Assembly: GCA_009379955.1 (NCBI GenBank)
Contig: WHST01000047.1
Coordinates: forward strand, 1-44,891
Direction: 5' to 3'
DNA length: 44,891 bases
DNA from: Streptosporangiales bacterium
Lineage (GTDB): Bacteria; Actinomycetota; Actinomycetes; Streptosporangiales; WHST01
Part shown: positions 6,992-16,962 of the stretch, piece after piece
Layout: the number at the start of each line of letters is the position of its first letter
How positions within the stretch are numbered: the stretch's first letter is position 1
Notes under the pieces: model-generated
What the model was told of the DNA's origin: nothing
What the model saw: the letters and a program-made list of their open reading frames with translations, nothing else
Database searches by the model: none
Position numbers and translations under genes: made by a program

Positions 6992-8254
6992 ATGTTCGAC
7001 GCGGTGATACGCAAGGGCTGGGCGGTCTCCGGGCTACTCGCGCTCGGGGTGGCGACGATGCTCACCGTCCACGGCGACCGGGCCGGCCAGGCGGACGGCC
7101 ACGGCCAGGTGGCGCGCAACGTCATCTACCTGCAGGGCGACGGCATGGGCCTTGCGCATCGCAACCTGATCCGGCTCGCCACGGTGGGCCAGGACGACGA
7201 CCTCGTCATGAACGAGCTGCCGGTCACCGGGTCGGTGCACACCGACGCCGCCGACCCGGAGGAGGCCGTGACCGACTCGGCGGCCGCCGCGACGGCGTTC
7301 GCCACGGGGCACAAGACGTACAACGGCGCGATCGGCGTCGACGCCGACGGCAACCGGGTCGAGACCGTTCTGGAGATGGCGAAGAAGGCCGGCAAGGCGA
7401 CCGGTCTCGTGACGACCGCGCAGGTGACCGACGCGTCGCCGGCGGCGTTCGCGGCGCACGTGCCCGACCGCGGCGACCAGAGCGAGATCGCGCGCCAGTA
7501 CCTGGACGAGAGCCGCCCGGACGTCATCCTCGGCGGCGGCGAGGACTGGTGGTACCCGAAGGGTGAGCCAGGCGCCTGGCCCGACCACCCGGAGACCGAC
7601 CCGACCGAGGAGAGCCAGGGCACCAAGGGCAACCTCGTCGAGAAGGCGAAGGACCTCGGCTACGAGTACCTCACGAACGCCGACGAGCTCCGCGAGGCCG
7701 AGGGCGACCGGCTGCTCGGGCTGTTCGCCAACGAGGAGATGTTCGAGTACCACCCGGAGGGCGAGGGTGACCTGTACGACCCGAGCGTCCCGCTCACCGA
7801 CATGACGGACCAGGCGCTGCAGACGCTCTCGCGCCACCGACAGGGCTTCTTCCTCATGGTCGAGGAGGAGGGCATCGACGGCATGGCGCACGCCAACAAC
7901 GCCGCGCTGACGATCACGTCAGGCCAGGCGCTCGACGACACCGTCGCCACCGTCCTGCGGTTCGTGCAGGAGAACCCGCGCACCCTGGTGATCGTCGGCG
8001 GCGACCACGAGACCGGCGGCCTCACGATCGAGAACGTCGACGGCGAGGACGAAGGCGGCTCGGGTCAGCAGCAGGAGGACGGCCCGTTCACCATCGCGGG
8101 TTCTGACCTGCAGTTCACGGTCGACTGGACCACCGGCGGGCACACGGCCGCGGACACGCCCGTGACGGCGACGGGCCCCGGCTCGGCGCGTCTCGACGGG
8201 ACGATCGACAACACCGACGTGTTCTGGGCGATGGTCAAGGCGATGCGCCTATAG
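6992..8254 (+). CDS. Secreted PhoA-family alkaline phosphatase
   Basis: Phosphomonoesterase of 420 residues. The N-terminus is a signal peptide (basic residues at 7-8, hydrophobic core about 11-26) without a lipobox. The PhoA active site is complete: metal-binding Asp50 in YLQGDGMG, nucleophile Ser96 in TDSAAAATAFATG, Glu/Asp/His in EEEGIDGMAHANN (Asp296, His300), Asp338-His339 in VGGDHETGG, and His384 in TTGGHTAADTP. Expected role: release of phosphate from organic esters outside the cell. The ATG at 6992 has no clear ribosome site. Pho-box-like repeats directly upstream suggest phosphate control. The gene is convergent with the GNAT gene, and a palindrome between them may terminate both. 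Confidence 0.93.
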   Translation: MFDAVIRKGWAVSGLLALGVATMLTVHGDRAGQADGHGQVARNVIYLQGDGMGLAHRNLIRLATVGQDDDLVMNELPVTGSVHTDAADPEEAVTDSAAAATAFATGHKTYNGAIGVDADGNRVETVLEMAKKAGKATGLVTTAQVTDASPAAFAAHVPDRGDQSEIARQYLDESRPDVILGGGEDWWYPKGEPGAWPDHPETDPTEESQGTKGNLVEKAKDLGYEYLTNADELREAEGDRLLGLFANEEMFEYHPEGEGDLYDPSVPLTDMTDQALQTLSRHRQGFFLMVEEEGIDGMAHANNAALTITSGQALDDTVATVLRFVQENPRTLVIVGGDHETGGLTIENVDGEDEGGSGQQQEDGPFTIAGSDLQFTVDWTTGGHTAADTPVTATGPGSARLDGTIDNTDVFWAMVKAMRL

Positions 8255-8307: not shown

Positions 8308-8357
8308 CGTGAACGGCACCCTCACCGTGTCAGGGCACGGTGAGGGTGCCCCTCACG
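8308..8357. repeat. Palindromic repeat, family B, copy 1 (possible bidirectional terminator)
   Basis: Core arms 8315-8331 (GGCACCCTCACCGTGTC) and 8334-8350 pair with one mismatch around a 2-nt centre; pairing extends outward with gaps to 8308/8357. The second copy at 19393-19446 differs at one base in the 36-bp core. It sits between convergent genes (alkaline phosphatase and GNAT), where a bidirectional terminator is expected, and it encodes the last residues and stop codon of the GNAT gene. Confidence 0.8.
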
Positions 8358-9122
8358 GGTGAGCGTCGGGTCGTCGGGGTGGGTCGCTGCCGCGACCACG
8401 GCGCCGGTGAAGGTGTGCTGGCAGGTGAAGCCGAGGCTCCCGTACATGCCGCGGGCCGCGTCGTTGTCGGCGTACATCCCGAGGGTGACCGGTGACCTGC
8501 CCTCCTCGAGGAACCGCCGGGTGACCCAGCCCATGAGCGCGCGGGCGTGCCCGCGGCGGCGATGCGCGGCCGCGGTGGCGACCGACGACACGTGCGCGAC
8601 GGTCGCGCTGCGGCTGGTGTCGGCGAGGCACGCGACGAGCACGCCGTCGTCGTCACGGATGCCCGCCCACCGGTGCGACCTGCCGTCGTCCGGCCAGGTC
8701 GACGCTCCCGGACTGACCTCGTGGAGCAGCGCGGAGACGTCGTCGTGGTCGTCCGGCACGAGCCAGCGGGCGCCGGCCGCGCCGGGGAGGGACGGGGGCG
8801 GGGTGGTCGTCCACATCCAGTCCCAGTCCGACCGGCTCTCGACGCGGAGGTCGGTGGGCAGGTGGTCGAGCCACCCGCGGGGCAGCGACGCTCGCCGCGC
8901 GTCCGGGATCTCGTCGAGGAGCGCGGCGACGACGGTGGCGGCACCGTGCGGCGAGCCGACGCCGGCGAAACCCGGCCGGCCGTGGTGGGTGTTCGCCCAC
9001 ACGACCGCGCCGTCGCCGGCCCACGCGCCGTCGGTCACGGCCCCGTTGGCGACCGCGACGCGGACGTACATGTCGCCGTCGGTGGCTGCCAGGAGATCAT
9101 CGGGCGAGAGGGCTTCGATCAC
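8322..9122 (-). CDS. GNAT-family N-acetyltransferase
   Basis: Protein of 266 residues. The C-terminal half is a GNAT domain with the acetyl-CoA loop VATAAAHRRRGHARALMGWV (about residues 180-199) and the later motif LGMYADNDAARGMYGSLGF, typical of the fold. The N-terminal half has no recognised motif and may be a degenerate second GNAT unit, as in some two-domain acetyltransferases. Substrate unknown. Start is GTG at 9122 with only a weak ribosome site. The gene lies 102 bp downstream of the MMPL-hydrolase fusion on the same strand, with a hairpin in between. Its final codons fall inside palindrome family B. Confidence 0.8.
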   Translation of the reverse strand: MIEALSPDDLLAATDGDMYVRVAVANGAVTDGAWAGDGAVVWANTHHGRPGFAGVGSPHGAATVVAALLDEIPDARRASLPRGWLDHLPTDLRVESRSDWDWMWTTTPPPSLPGAAGARWLVPDDHDDVSALLHEVSPGASTWPDDGRSHRWAGIRDDDGVLVACLADTSRSATVAHVSSVATAAAHRRRGHARALMGWVTRRFLEEGRSPVTLGMYADNDAARGMYGSLGFTCQHTFTGAVVAAATHPDDPTLTREGHPHRALTR

Positions 9123-9224: not shown

Positions 9225-12200
9225 CTATGACCAACGCGATGCGTCCACGTGGGGGCGGACTGCGCCGCTCCCGGTGGCCCAGGCGGCGATGCGGTCGGCG
9301 ACGGAGCCGGGGTTCCTGGCCCACCTCAGATGGCCGGGCGCGGGCCCGTCGGGCGCGTGGTGCCAGCGGTCGACGCGGGCGCCGCGGAGCTTGCCGCACA
9401 GGTGGTCGACGGAGCTCGTCGGCGCCAGGTCGTCGCCGGCCATCGTGATCGCGAGCACCGGCACGCGGACCCGCGCGACCAGCGGGTCGAGGTCGACTCC
9501 GTCGACGACGTAGCGGCCGGTGCGCGCGTTGCGGGCCCAGTCGCGCATCAGCGCGGCGGGCTGCGCTCCGCCGAACCCGAAGCGGTCGCCCGGCCAGTGA
9601 CCGGAGAGCCGGCTGGTCAGGTCGACGAACTGGGAGAGGCCGAGCACCGAGAGCCGCCGGCGCACGTTCGGGAAGCCGCCGAAGAAGGCGGTGCCGCTGG
9701 CGACGAGGACGATTCCGTCGACGTCGTCGGGGTGGGTGGCGGCGTACAGCACGGCGAGCTGCCCGCCGATGCTGCTGCCGCCGACCAGCAACCTGCGGCC
9801 CGGCAGCAGGTCGCGCACGGCGGCGAGCGTGTCGGGCACGTCGGTCGCGAGGAGGCTGCCGTAGCCGACCGACGCCGTGCGCGGCTCGACGGTCGAGTCG
9901 CCCTGGCCCGGCAGGTCGGGCAGCGCGACGGAGATGCCGCGGTCGGCGAGCGCGTCGGCGAAGCGTGTGTAGTACGTGGCCGCCACGCCGAGCGCCGGCC
10001 AGAACACGAGCACCGGGCCGTCGTCGTCGCGCAGGACCATGCGGACGGGGACGACGCGACCGGAGGCCGTGGGCACCTGCTGGGTGACGTGGCGCACCAC
10101 CGGAGCGGCCGCGTCGGACGGTGCCGGGTCGGCGAGGCCGGGCGCCGCGAGCGAGGGGGTCGCGCCCGCCGGTGGCGGCGACTCGTGCAGCCCGATCCGC
10201 CGATGGACGCGGCGCAGCCAGCGGGGCGCCCACCAGTTGGCCCGGCCGAGCAGCGACATCGTCGCCGGGACGAGCAGGCAGCGCACGAGGGTCGCGTCGA
10301 CGGCCACGGCGACGCACATCGCCAACCCCATCTGCTTGATCATGACGAGCTCCCCGGACACGAAGCCCGCGCACACGACGATGATCAGCAGCGCGGCGGA
10401 GGTGATGATGCGTCCGCTGCGCTGCAGGCCGATGGTCACCGCCCGCTTGTTGTCGCCGGTCGCGTCGTACGCCTCCTTGATCCGCGACAGCAGGAAGACC
10501 TCGTAGTCCATGGAGAGGCCGAAGGCGAACGCGAACACCAGGATCGGCACGAACAGGTCGAGCGAGCCCGGCGGGTCGAAGCCGAGCAGATCGGAGAGGT
10601 GACCCTCCTGGAAGACGAGGACGAGCATGCCGAACGTCGCGCCGAGCGACAGCGCGTCCATGACCAGCGCCTTGACCGGGATGAGGATCGACCCCGTCAT
10701 GAGGAACAGCAGCAGGAACGTCGCGATCCCGATGATCGCGAGTCCCCACGGCAGCCGGTCGGCGATCTCGGCCTTCAGGTCGACGAGGAGCGCGGCGGAT
10801 CCGGTGACGTAGACCGCGAAGTCGGGACGGTCGGCCCAGATCGCGCGGACGACCTTCTCGCCGGCCTCCTCCCTGGTCTGGCCCGCCGCCGGGTCGTCGG
10901 GGTACACGTCGAGCACCGCGACGCCGTTGCCCAGATCGCCCGCGCGCACGCGGTTGACGCCAGGTAGGTCGGCGACAGTCTGCCTGCCGTACGCGCCGAG
11001 CTCGGCGCGCGGCACCTCGGCGACGACGCTGACGGGTTCGCTGCCGCCGCCGGGAAAGCGGTCCTCCTGGGCGTCGGCGACGATCCTGCTCTCCGAGGAC
11101 CTGGGCAGCGCGGTGTGGTCGACGCCGCCGAACTTCGCGTCGAGGAACGGCGAGCCGGCGAACAGCAGCAGCCCCGCGACCACGATCGCGACGAGCGGCG
11201 CCACCTTCTGCGTGCCCCGCGAGATCCGGGAGAAGAAGCCCTCGTCGGGGACCGGTCGAGTCGGCGCCTTGATCCAGCGCCCGGCGAGACCGAGCAGGGC
11301 GGGGACGAGGGTGAGGGCCGCGAGCGCCGCGATGACGATCACACTGATGCCCGCGAGCGCGAACGCGTGGAACATCGGTGTCTTGAACGCGAACATGCCG
11401 CTCAACGCCGCCGCGACGGTGAGCGCGGAGAAGCAGACGGTGCGGCCGGCTGCCGCGATGGCGCGTCCGGTCGCCGCACGGCCGTCGAGACCGTGCCCAC
11501 GTTCCTCGCGGTAGCGGCTGACGACCAGCAGCGCGTAGTCGATGGACAGGCCGAGGCCCATGATCGTGGTGATCGAGATCGCGTTGGAGTCGATGTCGAT
11601 CACGTACGTGAAGCCGAGCAGCGCGAGCAGTGACCCGGCGACCGCGCCCACCGTGCCGACCAGGGGCAGCAGCGCCGCGACGATGCCGCCGAACACCAGG
11701 ACGAGCAGCACCAGCGTGATCGGGAACGCGATCAGTTCGCCGCGCCTGATGTCGTGCTCGATCTGGGTGGTGAAGTCGCGGAACACCGCGGTCGTGCCGC
11801 CGACCTTCACGTCGACGCCCGACACCTCGTCCGAGAGCCGCTCCAGCCGCTCGCGGACGAGATCGTGCGCCTCGTCCGCGGCCGAACCGGACAGCGTGTT
11901 GTCGAGCTCGACGAGCACCAGGCTCGCCTCGCCGTCCTCGGAGCGCATCGACGGCGTGCGCGTGGAGTACCAGTCGACCGCGGAGAGCACATGCGGCTGG
12001 GTGCGCACGTCACCGACCGCCTCGGTGACCGCGGTGCGCAGTGACGGGTCGTCGACGTCGTGCCCGTCGACGAGCACCACCACCCGCTCGCCGGCCCCCG
12101 CGACGTCCTCCACCAGGTCTGTGCCGCGCACCGACTCGCTGCCGGGCGTGGCGTAGTCGGACTCGGCGAGCCGGTCGAAGACCTTCGAGCCGATGCCGAA

Positions 12201-12281
12201 GCCCACGAGGATCAGGGCGAGCCAGGCGATCACGATCAGGCGGTTGTGTCGGTGGCAGAACCGACCGAGGGCGTCGAGCAC
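9225..12281 (-). CDS. MMPL (RND-type) transporter fused to an alpha/beta hydrolase
   Basis: One uninterrupted frame of 1018 residues. Residues 1 to about 700 form a full MMPL transporter: TM1 at about 14-32, a periplasmic loop, a bundle of membrane segments at about 183-335 with [15 protein letters not shown] (Asp248-Tyr249), a second loop, and a second bundle at about 510-675 with [15 protein letters not shown] (Asp592-Tyr593). These Asp-Tyr pairs are the proton-relay residues of the family. A Pro/Ala-rich linker (about 701-730) leads to an alpha/beta hydrolase domain (about 730-1005) with a GSSIG nucleophile elbow (Ser837), candidate acid Asp950/951 and candidate His984. MMPL proteins export lipids or other hydrophobic compounds; the fused hydrolase suggests cleavage or transfer of an acyl group coupled to export. 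Start is GTG; the substrate is not known. Divergent from rarA. Confidence 0.9.
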
Positions 12282-12467: not shown

Positions 12468-13825
12468 GTGGGTGACCAGGACAGTCTCTTCGAGGACGCG
12501 CGAGAGCGCGCCGAGGTGGCGCAACAGCCGCTGGCAGTACGCATGCGCCCGCGCGGCCTCGACGAGGTCGTGGGCCAGCAGCACCTGCTGCGTCCCGGCG
12601 CGCCGCTGCGCCGCCTCGTGGAGAGCGACGCCCCCATGTCGCTGCTGCTGTGGGGGCCGCCGGGCACCGGCAAGACCACCCTCGCGTACGTCGTCTCGCT
12701 CGCGACCAAGCGCACGTTCGTCGAGCTGTCGGCCGTCACGTCCGGGGTCAAGGACGTCCGCGCGGTGGTCGAGCAGGCGCGGCGCGAGCTCGGCATGAGT
12801 GGCCGGCAGACCGTGCTGTTCGTCGACGAGGTGCACCGGTTCAACAAGACCCAGCAGGACGCGCTGCTGCCGTCCGTCGAGAACCGCTGGGTCACGTTCA
12901 TCGGCGCGACCACGGAGAACCCCTTCTTCTCCGTGGTGAGCCCGCTGCTCTCACGCTCGCTGCTGTTGAGCCTCGAACCGCTGACCGACGACGACGTCAG
13001 CGCCGTCGTCCGCCGTGCGCTCACCGAGCCGCGCGGCCTGGGGGGAGAGGTGACGCTCCCCGACGACACCGAGGAGCACCTGGTCCGGCTCGCCGCGGCG
13101 ACGCCCGTCGCGCGCTCACCTACCTCGAGGCCGCCGCCGGGGCGGCGACGAGCCGCGGCATGTCCGAGGTGTCGCTCGAGATCCTCGAGCAGGCGGTCGA
13201 CCGGGCCGCGGTGCGCTACGACCGCGACGGCGACCAGCACTACGACGTCGCGAGCGCGTTGATCAAGAGCCTGCGCGGCAGCGACGTCGACGCCGCGCTG
13301 CACTACCTGGCGCGGATGATCGTGGCGGGGGAGGATCCGCGGTTCATCGCCCGCCGGCTGGTGATCCTCGCGAGCGAGGACATCGGCATGGCCGACCCGA
13401 CCGCGCTGCAGACCGCCGTCGCGGCGGCCGACGCGGTGGCCATGATCGGCTTCCCCGAGGCGACCCTCACCCTCGCGCACGCCGTCGTCCACCTCGCGCT
13501 CGCGCCGAAGTCCAACGCTGTGACCAAGGCGATCGGCGCCGCGATGGACGACGTCCGCGCGGGGCGCGCCGGGCTGGTGCCCACGCACCTGCGCGACTCC
13601 CACTACCAGGGGGCGAAGAAGCTGCAGCACGGTCAGGGCTACGCCTACCCGCACGACCACCCCGGCGGCGTCGTCAGGCAGCAGTACGCGCCGGATACGG
13701 TGGCCGACAGGGTGTACTACGAGCCGACGACCCACGGCACCGAACGCCACTACGCCGAGGTGCTCGGCAGGATCCGCGGCATCCTGCGCGGCGACGGCGG
13801 GGTGAGCGAAGGAGCTGACGAGTGA
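12468..13825 (+). pseudogene. rarA: Replication-associated recombination protein A (AAA ATPase), frameshifted as read
   Basis: RarA/MgsA clamp-loader-like ATPase acting at stalled replication forks. The first part, from GTG 12468, carries Walker A ([13 protein letters not shown]), Walker B ([10 protein letters not shown]) and sensor 1 ([11 protein letters not shown]). At about 13095-13102 the frame breaks: the expected segment with [11 protein letters not shown] reads on in the frame starting at 13100 and then continues intact to the stop at 13825 (including [19 protein letters not shown]). Total length is 1358 nt, one base short of 453 codons, so a single missing base explains it. It is either a sequencing error or a real inactivating deletion; no slippery heptamer is seen. 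Both halves are otherwise well conserved, which favours an error or a very recent event. Confidence 0.8.
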
Positions 13826-13922
13826 GCCGGAGGTAGGAGTCGCGTTGCGACGGTGCCCGCTGCGGACGCCGTCGCGAGTCCTGCCGGAGGTGAGCGAGGA
13901 AGCGGTCGCGGGGCGGGGAGAC

Positions 13923-13987: not shown

Positions 13988-14278
13988 ATGAACCGACCGG
14001 CCAGGCTCGTCGCGATCGGCTTCGTCCTGGGGGTCGTCGCCACCAGACGGCTCGGTCGGCGCGGCCGCAGGAACCGCCGCCGCGCCACCTGGCAGCGCGC
14101 GGCCATGGAGGCCGTCACGCTCGCGTTCGCCGTCAAGGAGATCGCGAACGAGCTGGAGTCTTATGAGGCGCGCAGGGAAATCACGTCGCGCCGGCCTGCC
14201 GGTGTCGTGGATCCTGCGAAGGGGACGCGCGAGCTGACCTCGAGCGGCGCGGTCACGCGCGACAGAACCGAAGGGTGA
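13988..14278 (+). CDS. Small membrane-associated protein, function unknown
   Basis: Protein of 96 residues. A short hydrophobic stretch (about 6-18) is followed at once by a very basic cluster ([13 protein letters not shown]), then an amphipathic helix (about 33-60) and a polar tail. The layout suggests a one-segment membrane protein with a cytoplasmic basic region. The ATG at 13988 has an excellent GGAGGG site 4 nt upstream, which supports a real gene. A small conserved membrane protein in this place, between rarA and alaS, is also known in Streptomyces, but I cannot name a family. Its stop lies 11 bp before the alaS start. Confidence 0.7.
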
Positions 14279-14289
14279 GGGAGACCGGC

Positions 14290-16962
14290 ATGAAGACGGC
14301 AGAGATCGCACGGAGGTTCGTGCGCTTCTTCGAGGAGCGCGGTCACACGGTCGTGCCCTCGGCCGCCCTGCCGTTCGACGACCCGACCCTGCTGTTCGTC
14401 AACGCGGGCATGGTCCCGTTCAAGCCGTTCTTCCTCGGTGACGAGCGGCCGCCGTACGACCGTGCGGTGAGCGTGCAGAAGTGTGTCCGCACGCTCGACA
14501 TCGAAGAGGTCGGCAAGACCACCAGGCACGGCTCGTTCTTCCAGATGAACGGCAACTTCTCCTTCGGCGACTACTTCAAGGAACAGGCGATCGAGTACGC
14601 CTGGGAGCTCGTCACCAAGCCGCAGTCCGAGGGCGGGTACGGGTTCGAGGAGAGCCGGCTGTGGCCCACCGTCTACAAGGACGACGACGAGGCGTACGAC
14701 CTCTGGAAGCAGCTCACCGGCCTCCCCGACGAGCGCATCGTGCGGCGCGGCATGGTCGACAACTTCTGGTCGATGGGCGTCCCCGGCCCGTGCGGTCCGT
14801 GCAGTGAGATCTTCTACGACCGTGGCCCCGCCTACGGCAAGGAGGGCGGTCCGGACGTCGACGAGGACCGCTACATGGAGATCTGGAACCTCGTCTTCAT
14901 GCAGAACCTCCGCGGCCCGGGCGAGGGCAAGGAGGACTTCCCGATCGTCGGCGAGCTGCCGGCGAAGAACATCGACACCGGCATGGGCCTGGAACGCGTC
15001 GCGTACCTCCTGCAGGGCGTCGACAACCTCTACGAGATCGACGAGGTGCGGCCGGTCCTCGACCGGGCGTCGGAGGTCTCCGGGCGCCGCTACGGCGCGG
15101 ACCACGAGGACGACGTGCGCCTGCGGGTCATCGCCGACCATGTGCGCACGGCGCTGATGATCGTCAGTGACGGTGTCATGCCGGGCAACGAGGGCCGTGG
15201 CTACGTCCTGCGCCGGATCCTGCGCCGCGCGGTCCGCGGCATGCGGCTGCTCGGCGTCGACGAGCCGACCATGCCCGAGCTGCTGCCGGCGAGCAAGGAC
15301 GTCATGCGCGGCACCTACCCGGAGCTCGGCACCGACTGGGCGCGCATCTCCGAGGTGGTCTACGCCGAGGAGGAGATGTTCCGGCAGACCCTGCGCACCG
15401 GCACGCAGATCTTCGAGCAGGCGGCGCGCGAGACCAGGGAGTCCGGCGGCGTCGAGCTGCCCGGCGGCCGAGCGTTCCAGCTGCACGACACGTACGGCTT
15501 CCCGATCGACCTCACCCTCGAGATGGCGGGCGAGCAGGGTCTCACCGTCGACGAGGAGGGGTTCCGCCGGCTGATGGCGGAGCAGCGCGACCGGGCGAGG
15601 GCCGACGCGCGGGCGAAGAAGGTCGGCCACGCCGACGTCTCGGTCTACTCGGCGCTGCGCGAGCCCGGCGTCACCGAGTTCACCGGCTACACCGAGCAGG
15701 CCACCGAGTCGCGCGTGCGCGGCATCGTCTCCGGCGGTGTCTCCGTGCCGGTCGCCACCGAGGGCGAGCAGGTCGAGCTCGTGCTCGACCGCACCCCGTT
15801 CTACGCCGAGAGCGGTGGTCAGCTCGCCGACCACGGCCGCATCAGGGCGGGCGGCGCGACGTTCGACGTCCACGACGTCCAGGCGCCGGTGCCCGGACTC
15901 GTCGTCCACCGTGGCACGGTCGCGTCGGGCGAGCTGCGGGTCGGCGACGAGGTCTACGGCGAGGTCGAGGCGACGCGCCGCCGGTCGATCTCGCGCTCGC
16001 ACACCGCGACGCACATGGTGCACAAGGCGGTGCGCGAGATCCTCGGTGACACCGCCACGCAGGCGGGCTCGGAGAACGCGCCTGGGCGGCTGCGGTTCGA
16101 CTTCGCCGCGGCCTCGCCTCCGCCGCCCTCGACGCTGCAGCAGGCGGAGGAGCGGATCAACTCGTTGGTGGCCGAGGACCTCCAGGTCGAGGCGGCGGTG
16201 CTGCCCAAGGACCAGGCGCTCGCGATGGGAGCGATGGCGCTGTTCGGCCAGAAGTACGGCGACGAGGTGCGCATGGTCTCCGTCGGGGGGCCGTGGTCGC
16301 GCGAGCTGTGCGGCGGCACGCACGCCGCACACACGTCCCTGCTCGGCGTCGTCAAGCTGCTCGGCGAGTCGTCGATCGGCTCCGGGGTCCGCCGCGTCGA
16401 GGCCCTCGTCGGCACCGACGCGATGAGTCACCTGAGCCGCGAGAGCCTGCTCGTCTCGCAGCTCTCCGACCTGCTCAAGGTGCCGCGCACCGACCTGCGC
16501 GACCGCGTCGAGCAGACCGTCAACCGGCTCCGCGACGCGGAGAAGGAGATCGCCAGGCTGCGGTCCGCTCAGCTGCTGCAGGATGCGGGCGCGCTGCTCG
16601 AGGCGGTGCACGACGTCGGCGGTGTCAGCGTCCTCACCCACCAGGCTCCCGACGGCACGGCCGTCGACGACCTGCGCCGGCTCGCGCTCGACCTGCGCGG
16701 CCGGCTCGGTGACCGTCCCGCGGTCGTCGTGCTCGCCGGCGTGGCGAACGACCGGCCCGGGCTCGTCGTGGCCGTGACGGAGAAGGGCCGTGACAGCGGC
16801 CTGCGCGCGGGCCGCCTGGTCGGCGTCGGCGCGAAGGTGCTCGGCGGCGGTGGCGGCGGCAAGGACGACGTCGCGCAGGGCGGCGGCACCCGGCCCGAGG
16901 CGGTCGGCGAGGCGCTGGCCGCGGTGGAGCGCGAGATCGGCACGACGGCGGCCGGTGGCTGA
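14290..16962 (+). CDS. alaS: Alanyl-tRNA synthetase
   Basis: Class II AlaRS of 890 residues. Catalytic core with [25 protein letters not shown] near residue 80, tRNA recognition region, then the editing domain with [12 protein letters not shown] (HxxxH) and CGGTH, which together bind zinc and clear Ser-tRNA-Ala and Gly-tRNA-Ala, and a C-terminal C-Ala domain ending in a glycine run (GGGGGGKDD). ATG 14290 is preferred to an upstream in-frame start at 14275 because GAGGGAGA lies 5 nt upstream and the family begins MKTAEI-R-RF. The stop overlaps a possible GTG start of ruvX. Confidence 0.97.

Follow-up and report, generated by a model that had tools for sequence, protein, structure and literature searches.

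A single reading frame from a Streptosporangiales bacterium encodes an MMPL transporter followed by an alpha/beta-hydrolase domain. By homology this fusion is genuine: matches back both domains in one frame and the in-frame junction recurs in a second species. Within what was searched, the fused form is confined to one genus. Each part has the testable features of its family, and as both of these families are known, only the combination is unusual. With even confidence, we propose that the hydrolase domain is active in the cytosol as a serine esterase or transferase, acting on a lipid that is then exported by its own MMPL part.

The window, meaning the whole stretch of 44,891 nucleotides analysed here, carries the fusion gene at 9225..12281 on the minus strand, on which all its parts given below also lie. 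The gene opens with GTG and runs through 1018 codons (1018 aa) free of stops, while the plus-strand reading of the same stretch has stops. On this frame Pfam finds MMPL (PF03176) in two stretches at 285.4 bits with a cut-off of 20.5, and Abhydrolase_1 (PF00561) at residues 756-871 at 54 bits with a cut-off of 25.8. A preliminary description of this DNA had joined the two domains in one frame of 1018 codons, giving no strand, and had named GSSIG with Ser837, Asp950/951, His984 and two Asp-Tyr pairs (248-249, 592-593). All of these are found as it said.

The MMPL (RND) transporter part takes up residues 1-700 (10182..12281) by Pfam. Its model, for the most part above pLDDT 90, has twelve long helices and, by our assignment, one extramembrane domain following TM1 and another following TM7. 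Hydropathy was used alongside the model and the twelve TM helices and two porter loops are found. In the model, TM1 and TM2 flank the first porter loop (residues 32-162; 11796..12188), which would be extracytoplasmic by MMPL topology, and TM7 and TM8 flank the second (residues 382-494; 10800..11138).

Two predicted proton-relay pairs sit in the helices, Asp248-Tyr249 in TM4 (11535..11540) and Asp592-Tyr593 in TM10 (10503..10508). The first pair is D and Y in 34/34 alignment rows with letters. The second has D in 35/35 rows and Y in 34/35, where one row has H for Y and a hydrolase-only fragment accounts for one of the 35 rows. By sequence, the nearest chains of known structure are those of MmpL3 (E 4.7e-84), and the part scores below the cut-offs of both the MmpL3 equivalog NF052608 (349.6 vs 1400 bits) and the actII-type MMPL subfamily TIGR00833 (224.4 vs 874.7 bits). 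It is probably a proton-driven transporter with a lipid or other hydrophobic molecule as the cargo, as far as sequence can tell.

The genome of the window (G000) also has contig-end fragments at C55 39174-39743 and C172 2-151, with 34% and 54% identity, which represent at least one further MMPL gene.

The alpha/beta-hydrolase domain spans residues 731-1012 (9246..10091), as placed by Pfam, AlphaFold2 and the fold of Rv0183. Modelled alone with AlphaFold2, it reaches a mean pLDDT of 95.1, and its fold matches have Z of 22.6-25.8 across the 50 matches listed. The top ones are Rv0183 (6eic, 7ozm) with Z 25.8, followed within one Z unit by gastric and lysosomal acid lipases. By sequence, the best match in the PDB is PlaF (6i8w; E 2.3e-9 over domain residues 25-133), which ranks third in Foldseek. 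The score for the PcaD enol-lactonase profile TIGR02427 is 51.9 bits, below the cut-off of 255.85. Our best guess from the model is a putative serine esterase with a lipase-like fold, the substrate of which does not follow from the shared fold.

The predicted triad consists of the nucleophile Ser837 in GSSIG (residues 835-839; serine codon 9771..9773), the acid Asp950 (9432..9434) and the base His984 (9330..9332). Each residue is kept in 32/32 rows with letters, which are the window, one piece from the sister genome G001 for each residue and 30 stand-alone relatives. The preliminary description had staked its reading on conservation of the triad, and the triad is conserved. Of its two candidate acids, Asp950 is the conserved one and Asp951 varies across the alignment.

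The 30 stand-alone relatives come from 34 loci, four of which (L152, L157, L158, L161) were omitted before counting as near copies. These four all keep His-Ser, the Asp motif and DHxxW, and in L161 Cys replaces the first Gly of GxSxG. The residue preceding the nucleophile is His in 34/34 stand-alone relatives, Ser in the window and Asn in G001, which is a small sign that the active-site surroundings may be altered in the fused domain.

The best stand-alone relatives (e.g. L138, L139, L132) are 44-47% identical to the domain. FastTree joins the two fused domains with a support of 0.995, where G001 is represented by its first piece only, and the nearest stand-alone relatives of the pair are poorly resolved (support 0.77). 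An alignment that combined MMPLs with stand-alone hydrolases was left unused, as the hydrolases were misaligned in it (11-19% identity).

The two domains are joined by a Pro/Ala-rich linker at residues 701-730 (10092..10181), of which residues 707-726 have pLDDT below 50 in the full-length model. The preliminary description had likewise called the linker Pro/Ala-rich and had taken it as a true domain junction, and the second species shares this junction in frame.

The genus, and likewise the family, is represented by three genomes, the window's own, G001 and G002, and the fused form is found in two of them, the window's and G001. The G001 match spans protein residues 1-1010 in three pieces. 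Its gene (L086 5018-8062) is spread over three frames. One frameshift falls in the MMPL part, at about residues 190-224, and the other at about residue 934, just ahead of the catalytic Asp. A single open frame from about residue 216 to 934 crosses the junction, where the linker sequence is clearly different from that of the window. The frameshifts are either assembly error or decay.

Between the window and G001, the MMPL parts are 73% identical over 663 aligned codons (dN/dS about 0.38, NG86), the linkers 54% over 46 codons (about 0.37) and the hydrolases 65% over 261 codons (about 0.50, above the MMPL value). The dS in these ratios is probably underestimated because G+C reaches 91-96% at third positions. 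The MMPL part of G002 (67%) stays open up to the contig end, which falls inside the linker, and this 77%-complete genome gives no hydrolase match at E 1e-12. No second copy of the hydrolase was found in G000 or G001 at E 1e-12.

Outside the genus, the two halves were found only apart. The hydrolase-domain query matches 6/200 genomes of the order (E 1e-12), G000 and G001 among them, 58/394 of the class (E 1e-10) and 7/396 of the phylum (E 1e-12), the latter two both including G000. At 34 distinct hydrolase loci outside the genus, none has an MMPL beside the hydrolase at E 1e-3 within flanks of 1.5 kb for 30 loci and about 6 kb for four.

The full-protein query matches 199/200 genomes of the order at E 1e-60 and 67/396 of the phylum at E 1e-100, with at most four and at most two candidates scored per genome, respectively. 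Among the matches listed, none outside the genus extends beyond query residue 775 (G296). The plasmid search gave 276 matching records and, among the matches listed, none had one place covering 80% of the protein. All these searches for the fusion cover relatives of this hydrolase domain, not MMPLs joined to other kinds of hydrolase. In open-access PubMed Central, no MMPL-hydrolase fusion was found by title and abstract start among the matches listed.

From the MMPL side, 134 distinct loci were compiled, namely 106 distinct ones among 109 (75, a further 27 from the full-protein search of the order, and seven others) and 29 from the phylum search, less one repeat. The preliminary description had expected standard MMPL proteins to end near residue 700-750. 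This holds for nearly all: 129 of the 134 loci are complete without a hydrolase, two carry one (window and G001) and the other three (L087, L181, L189) run off their contigs. The complete MMPL tails are mostly short, the longest being 99 and 81 aa beyond residue 700 (L173, L180), and the 29 phylum-search loci give no hydrolase match at E 0.01. The preliminary description would have been refuted by homologs that are always split. This is not so, as G001 has the fused form too, although the fusion was found in one genus only.

The fusion gene is flanked on its 5′ side by mgsA (AAA+ ATPase; 12477..13837, plus strand), a divergent neighbour that serves as the synteny anchor, and beyond it by alaS (14275..16962, plus strand), another member of the conserved locus. 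In the window, the mgsA frame breaks into two, 12477-13094 and 13097-13837, which are offset by one base near 13095 and leave a single residue of the protein from G001 without a counterpart. In G001, G002 and L127, the gene is in a single frame. The split is either an assembly indel or a real lesion. As the mgsA of the window is itself split this way, such indels do occur in these draft assemblies.

In the loci of the nearest orthologs within the order (L127, L128), where the MMPL is 48-49% identical, MgsA is likewise divergent upstream with AlaRS beyond, and the MMPL ends after about 695 residues with no hydrolase match behind. At the DNA level, the L127 locus is 84.5% identical to Nonomuraea gerenzanensis over half of the query, which makes Streptosporangiales, to which Nonomuraea belongs, the probable order. 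AspRS, MMPL and MgsA occur together in Cellulomonas, Actinotalea and Serinibacter loci (L015, L056, L084, L071) and also in L014. Judged by gene order and homology, the MMPL belongs to an old conserved locus of MMPL-MgsA-AlaRS, with AspRS in Cellulomonas relatives.

On the other side, a GNAT-family gene (8322..9122, minus strand; Acetyltransf_1, 41 bits) lies directly downstream, as described before; it shares the strand of the fusion gene, and 102 bp separate the two. Conservation of this neighbour, a check that the preliminary description had proposed, turns out partial: GNAT homologs follow the MMPL in L086 (G001), L165 and L171, and no GNAT match was found at E 1 in L127, L128, L014, L015 or L056. 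L084 and L071 have a weak GNAT match on the strand opposite to the MMPL.

L165 and L171 come from two other families of the class and have a hydrolase-free MMPL, the TGA stop of which overlaps a GTG that opens the GNAT frame and is presumably its start. Their GNATs are 43% and 30% identical to that of the window over part of the length. They appear translationally coupled to the MMPL, with MgsA divergent upstream. Among the 29 phylum-search loci with 1.5-kb flanks, two have a GNAT behind a hydrolase-free MMPL.

The adjacency of MMPL and GNAT is thus probably older than the fusion, though not universal. Since the GNAT directly follows hydrolase-free MMPLs in L165 and L171, the hydrolase was probably inserted between MMPL and GNAT in this genus. 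For the same reason, the idea of the GNAT as a partner of the hydrolase was dropped.

An alkaline phosphatase gene (6992-8254, plus strand) lies between the GNAT gene and a DUF1707 gene and has no match better than E 0.82 in the 13-kb G001 locus L086.

The side of the membrane follows from topology. MMPL proteins have 12 TM helices with the N terminus inside and two porter loops outside. With the helices even in number and oriented as in MMPL proteins, the hydrolase domain would lie in the cytosol. The part of PMC10171966 drawn on here describes MmpL3 as a protein of 12 TM helices, with its porter loops in the periplasm and its C-terminal domain in the cytosol. The same part places the second porter loop between TM5 and TM6, and our model has it after TM7.

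In the full-length model, the hydrolase is unplaced, with means of 26-81 over 10-residue blocks from residue 731 on and no docking surface. This poor part is due to the alignment, which consists of MMPL rows and two G001 fragments with almost no hydrolase rows.

The preliminary description had suggested that a substrate is processed as it is exported. The fusion and the conserved triad agree with this, but the predicted side shifts the timing: a cytosolic C-terminal domain should meet its substrate before export or at loading.

The mechanism we propose is that, in the lineage leading to this genus, an MMPL transporter gained a C-terminal domain on its cytosolic side, a serine alpha/beta-hydrolase. 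The hydrolase would deacylate an inner-leaflet lipid or transfer an acyl group onto it. The fusion would hold this activity at the transporter's entrance, and it would be the edited lipid that is loaded and exported. The neighbouring GNAT may add a further modification within the same locus. We infer a common substrate for both domains and coupling of the chemistry to export.

Precedents from mycobacteria point in both directions. Phosphatidylethanolamine and diacylglycerol are among the lipids with which MmpL3 reportedly interacts (excerpt of PMC10171966). Chp1 acylates a lipid that MmpL8 subsequently moves, so it acts before transport, and Chp2, the acyltransferase partner of MmpL10, acts outside after transport (both from the portion of PMC6463170 at hand). 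The cytosolic AcpM is found bound to MmpL5 (PMC12346298, in part). The lipid contacts of MmpL3 and the acyltransferases of MmpL8 and MmpL10 make a lipid ester reasonable, by analogy and unproven, as the cargo. The pair of MmpL10 and Chp2 is the best-studied MmpL10 case and, with its enzyme outside after transport, counts against editing before export. Also counted against lipid editing is that no lipid-synthesis gene was found in the ten neighbour frames scanned with Pfam. The two frameshifts in the G001 gene, the dN/dS of the hydrolase, higher than that of the MMPL, and its lack of a position in the full-length model weigh against the proposal as well.

The strictest form of the proposal is an editing exporter, a single polypeptide with obligatory coupling of chemistry and export. 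Each lipid would be checked and modified at the MMPL entry by a cytosolic domain that is an acyl-ester hydrolase or an acyltransferase. We hold this form to be distinctly doubtful.

The main rival is membrane anchoring alone, in which the esterase is merely tethered to the MMPL and acts on ordinary membrane lipids or other esters, uncoupled from export. It is rather unlikely in our estimate but deserves serious weight. In its favour, the stand-alone relatives of the domain do without an MMPL in the flanks at 34/34 loci, PlaF, which leads the PDB sequence matches, is a phospholipase anchored in the membrane and not a transporter, and a long flexible linker does not require coupling. It is opposed by the retention of the fusion, the triad and the linker over 27-35% protein divergence of the two domains, and by the lack of an unfused copy in either G000 or G001 at E 1e-12.

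Another rival concerns the chemistry: the domain could be an acyltransferase rather than a hydrolase, moving acyl groups from one lipid to another or to the cargo, as is the case for Chp1 and Chp2 with mycobacterial lipids. Alpha/beta-hydrolase folds include acyltransferases. Also in its favour are the residue ahead of the nucleophile, which is Ser or Asn in the two fused proteins vs His in all 34 stand-alone relatives, and the precedent of Chp1 and Chp2 acting with MmpL8 and MmpL10 (PMC6463170, as excerpted). However, the best structural matches are lipases and esterases and, among the matches listed, no acyltransferase profile comes near its cut-off (OlsI, 18.6 bits vs 385), so we deem it improbable.

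It is very improbable that the fusion arose by accident in sequencing or assembly, or that the gene is a relic. The two frameshifts in the sister gene and the one-base offset in mgsA, which put indels in both assemblies, are outweighed by the frame open across all 1018 codons, the one-frame junction in both species despite their differing linkers, which argues against an accident in the window, and a codon-position pattern of constraint.

Returning to the esterase or transferase acting before export, the fusion matters to a question still unsettled, the coupling of lipid synthesis and export, as some MMPL exporters have separate lipid-modifying partners. A natural fusion points to the activity of the partner, that of a serine ester hydrolase or transferase, cytosolic by topology. 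It also offers one protein in which a single serine mutation could probe the coupling. Orthologs that lack the hydrolase at this locus, in some cases with the GNAT right behind, are ready controls.

Compared with MmpL3 and other MMPL/RND lipid exporters, the fusion shares the 12 TM helices, the two porter loops and the Asp-Tyr pairs, and also a C-terminal domain that is cytosolic in MmpL3 (PMC10171966, excerpt) and predicted to be so here. MmpL3 is the mycobacterial trehalose monomycolate exporter, and the fusion scores below its equivalog cut-off (349.6 vs 1400 bits). The C-terminal domain of MmpL3 is for localisation, interactions and phosphoregulation as far as the same excerpt goes (PMC10171966), whereas that of the fusion has an enzyme fold.

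Rv0183, the monoglyceride lipase of Mycobacterium tuberculosis, shares the hydrolase fold (Z 25.8, rmsd 2.8-3.0 over 251 residues). It is a separate enzyme with 20% identity, and this likeness of fold does not imply monoacylglycerol hydrolysis. PlaF, the membrane phospholipase A of Pseudomonas aeruginosa, is likewise an alpha/beta hydrolase tied to the membrane and cuts lipids. However, it has one N-terminal TM helix and a periplasmic catalytic domain (PMC9132575, in the part used), whereas here the anchor is a transporter and the domain is predicted to be cytosolic. The stand-alone hydrolases of the class (L138, L139, L132) have the same Ser, Asp and His but are separate genes with no flanking MMPL.

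The pairs Chp1-MmpL8 and Chp2-MmpL10 of M. tuberculosis resemble the fusion in role, each combining a lipid-modifying enzyme with an MMPL exporter, a combination that for the fusion is only proposed (PMC6463170, excerpt). Chp1 and Chp2 are separate proteins, Chp2 being periplasmic according to this excerpt (PMC6463170), and are likened to the fused domain by role, not by homology.
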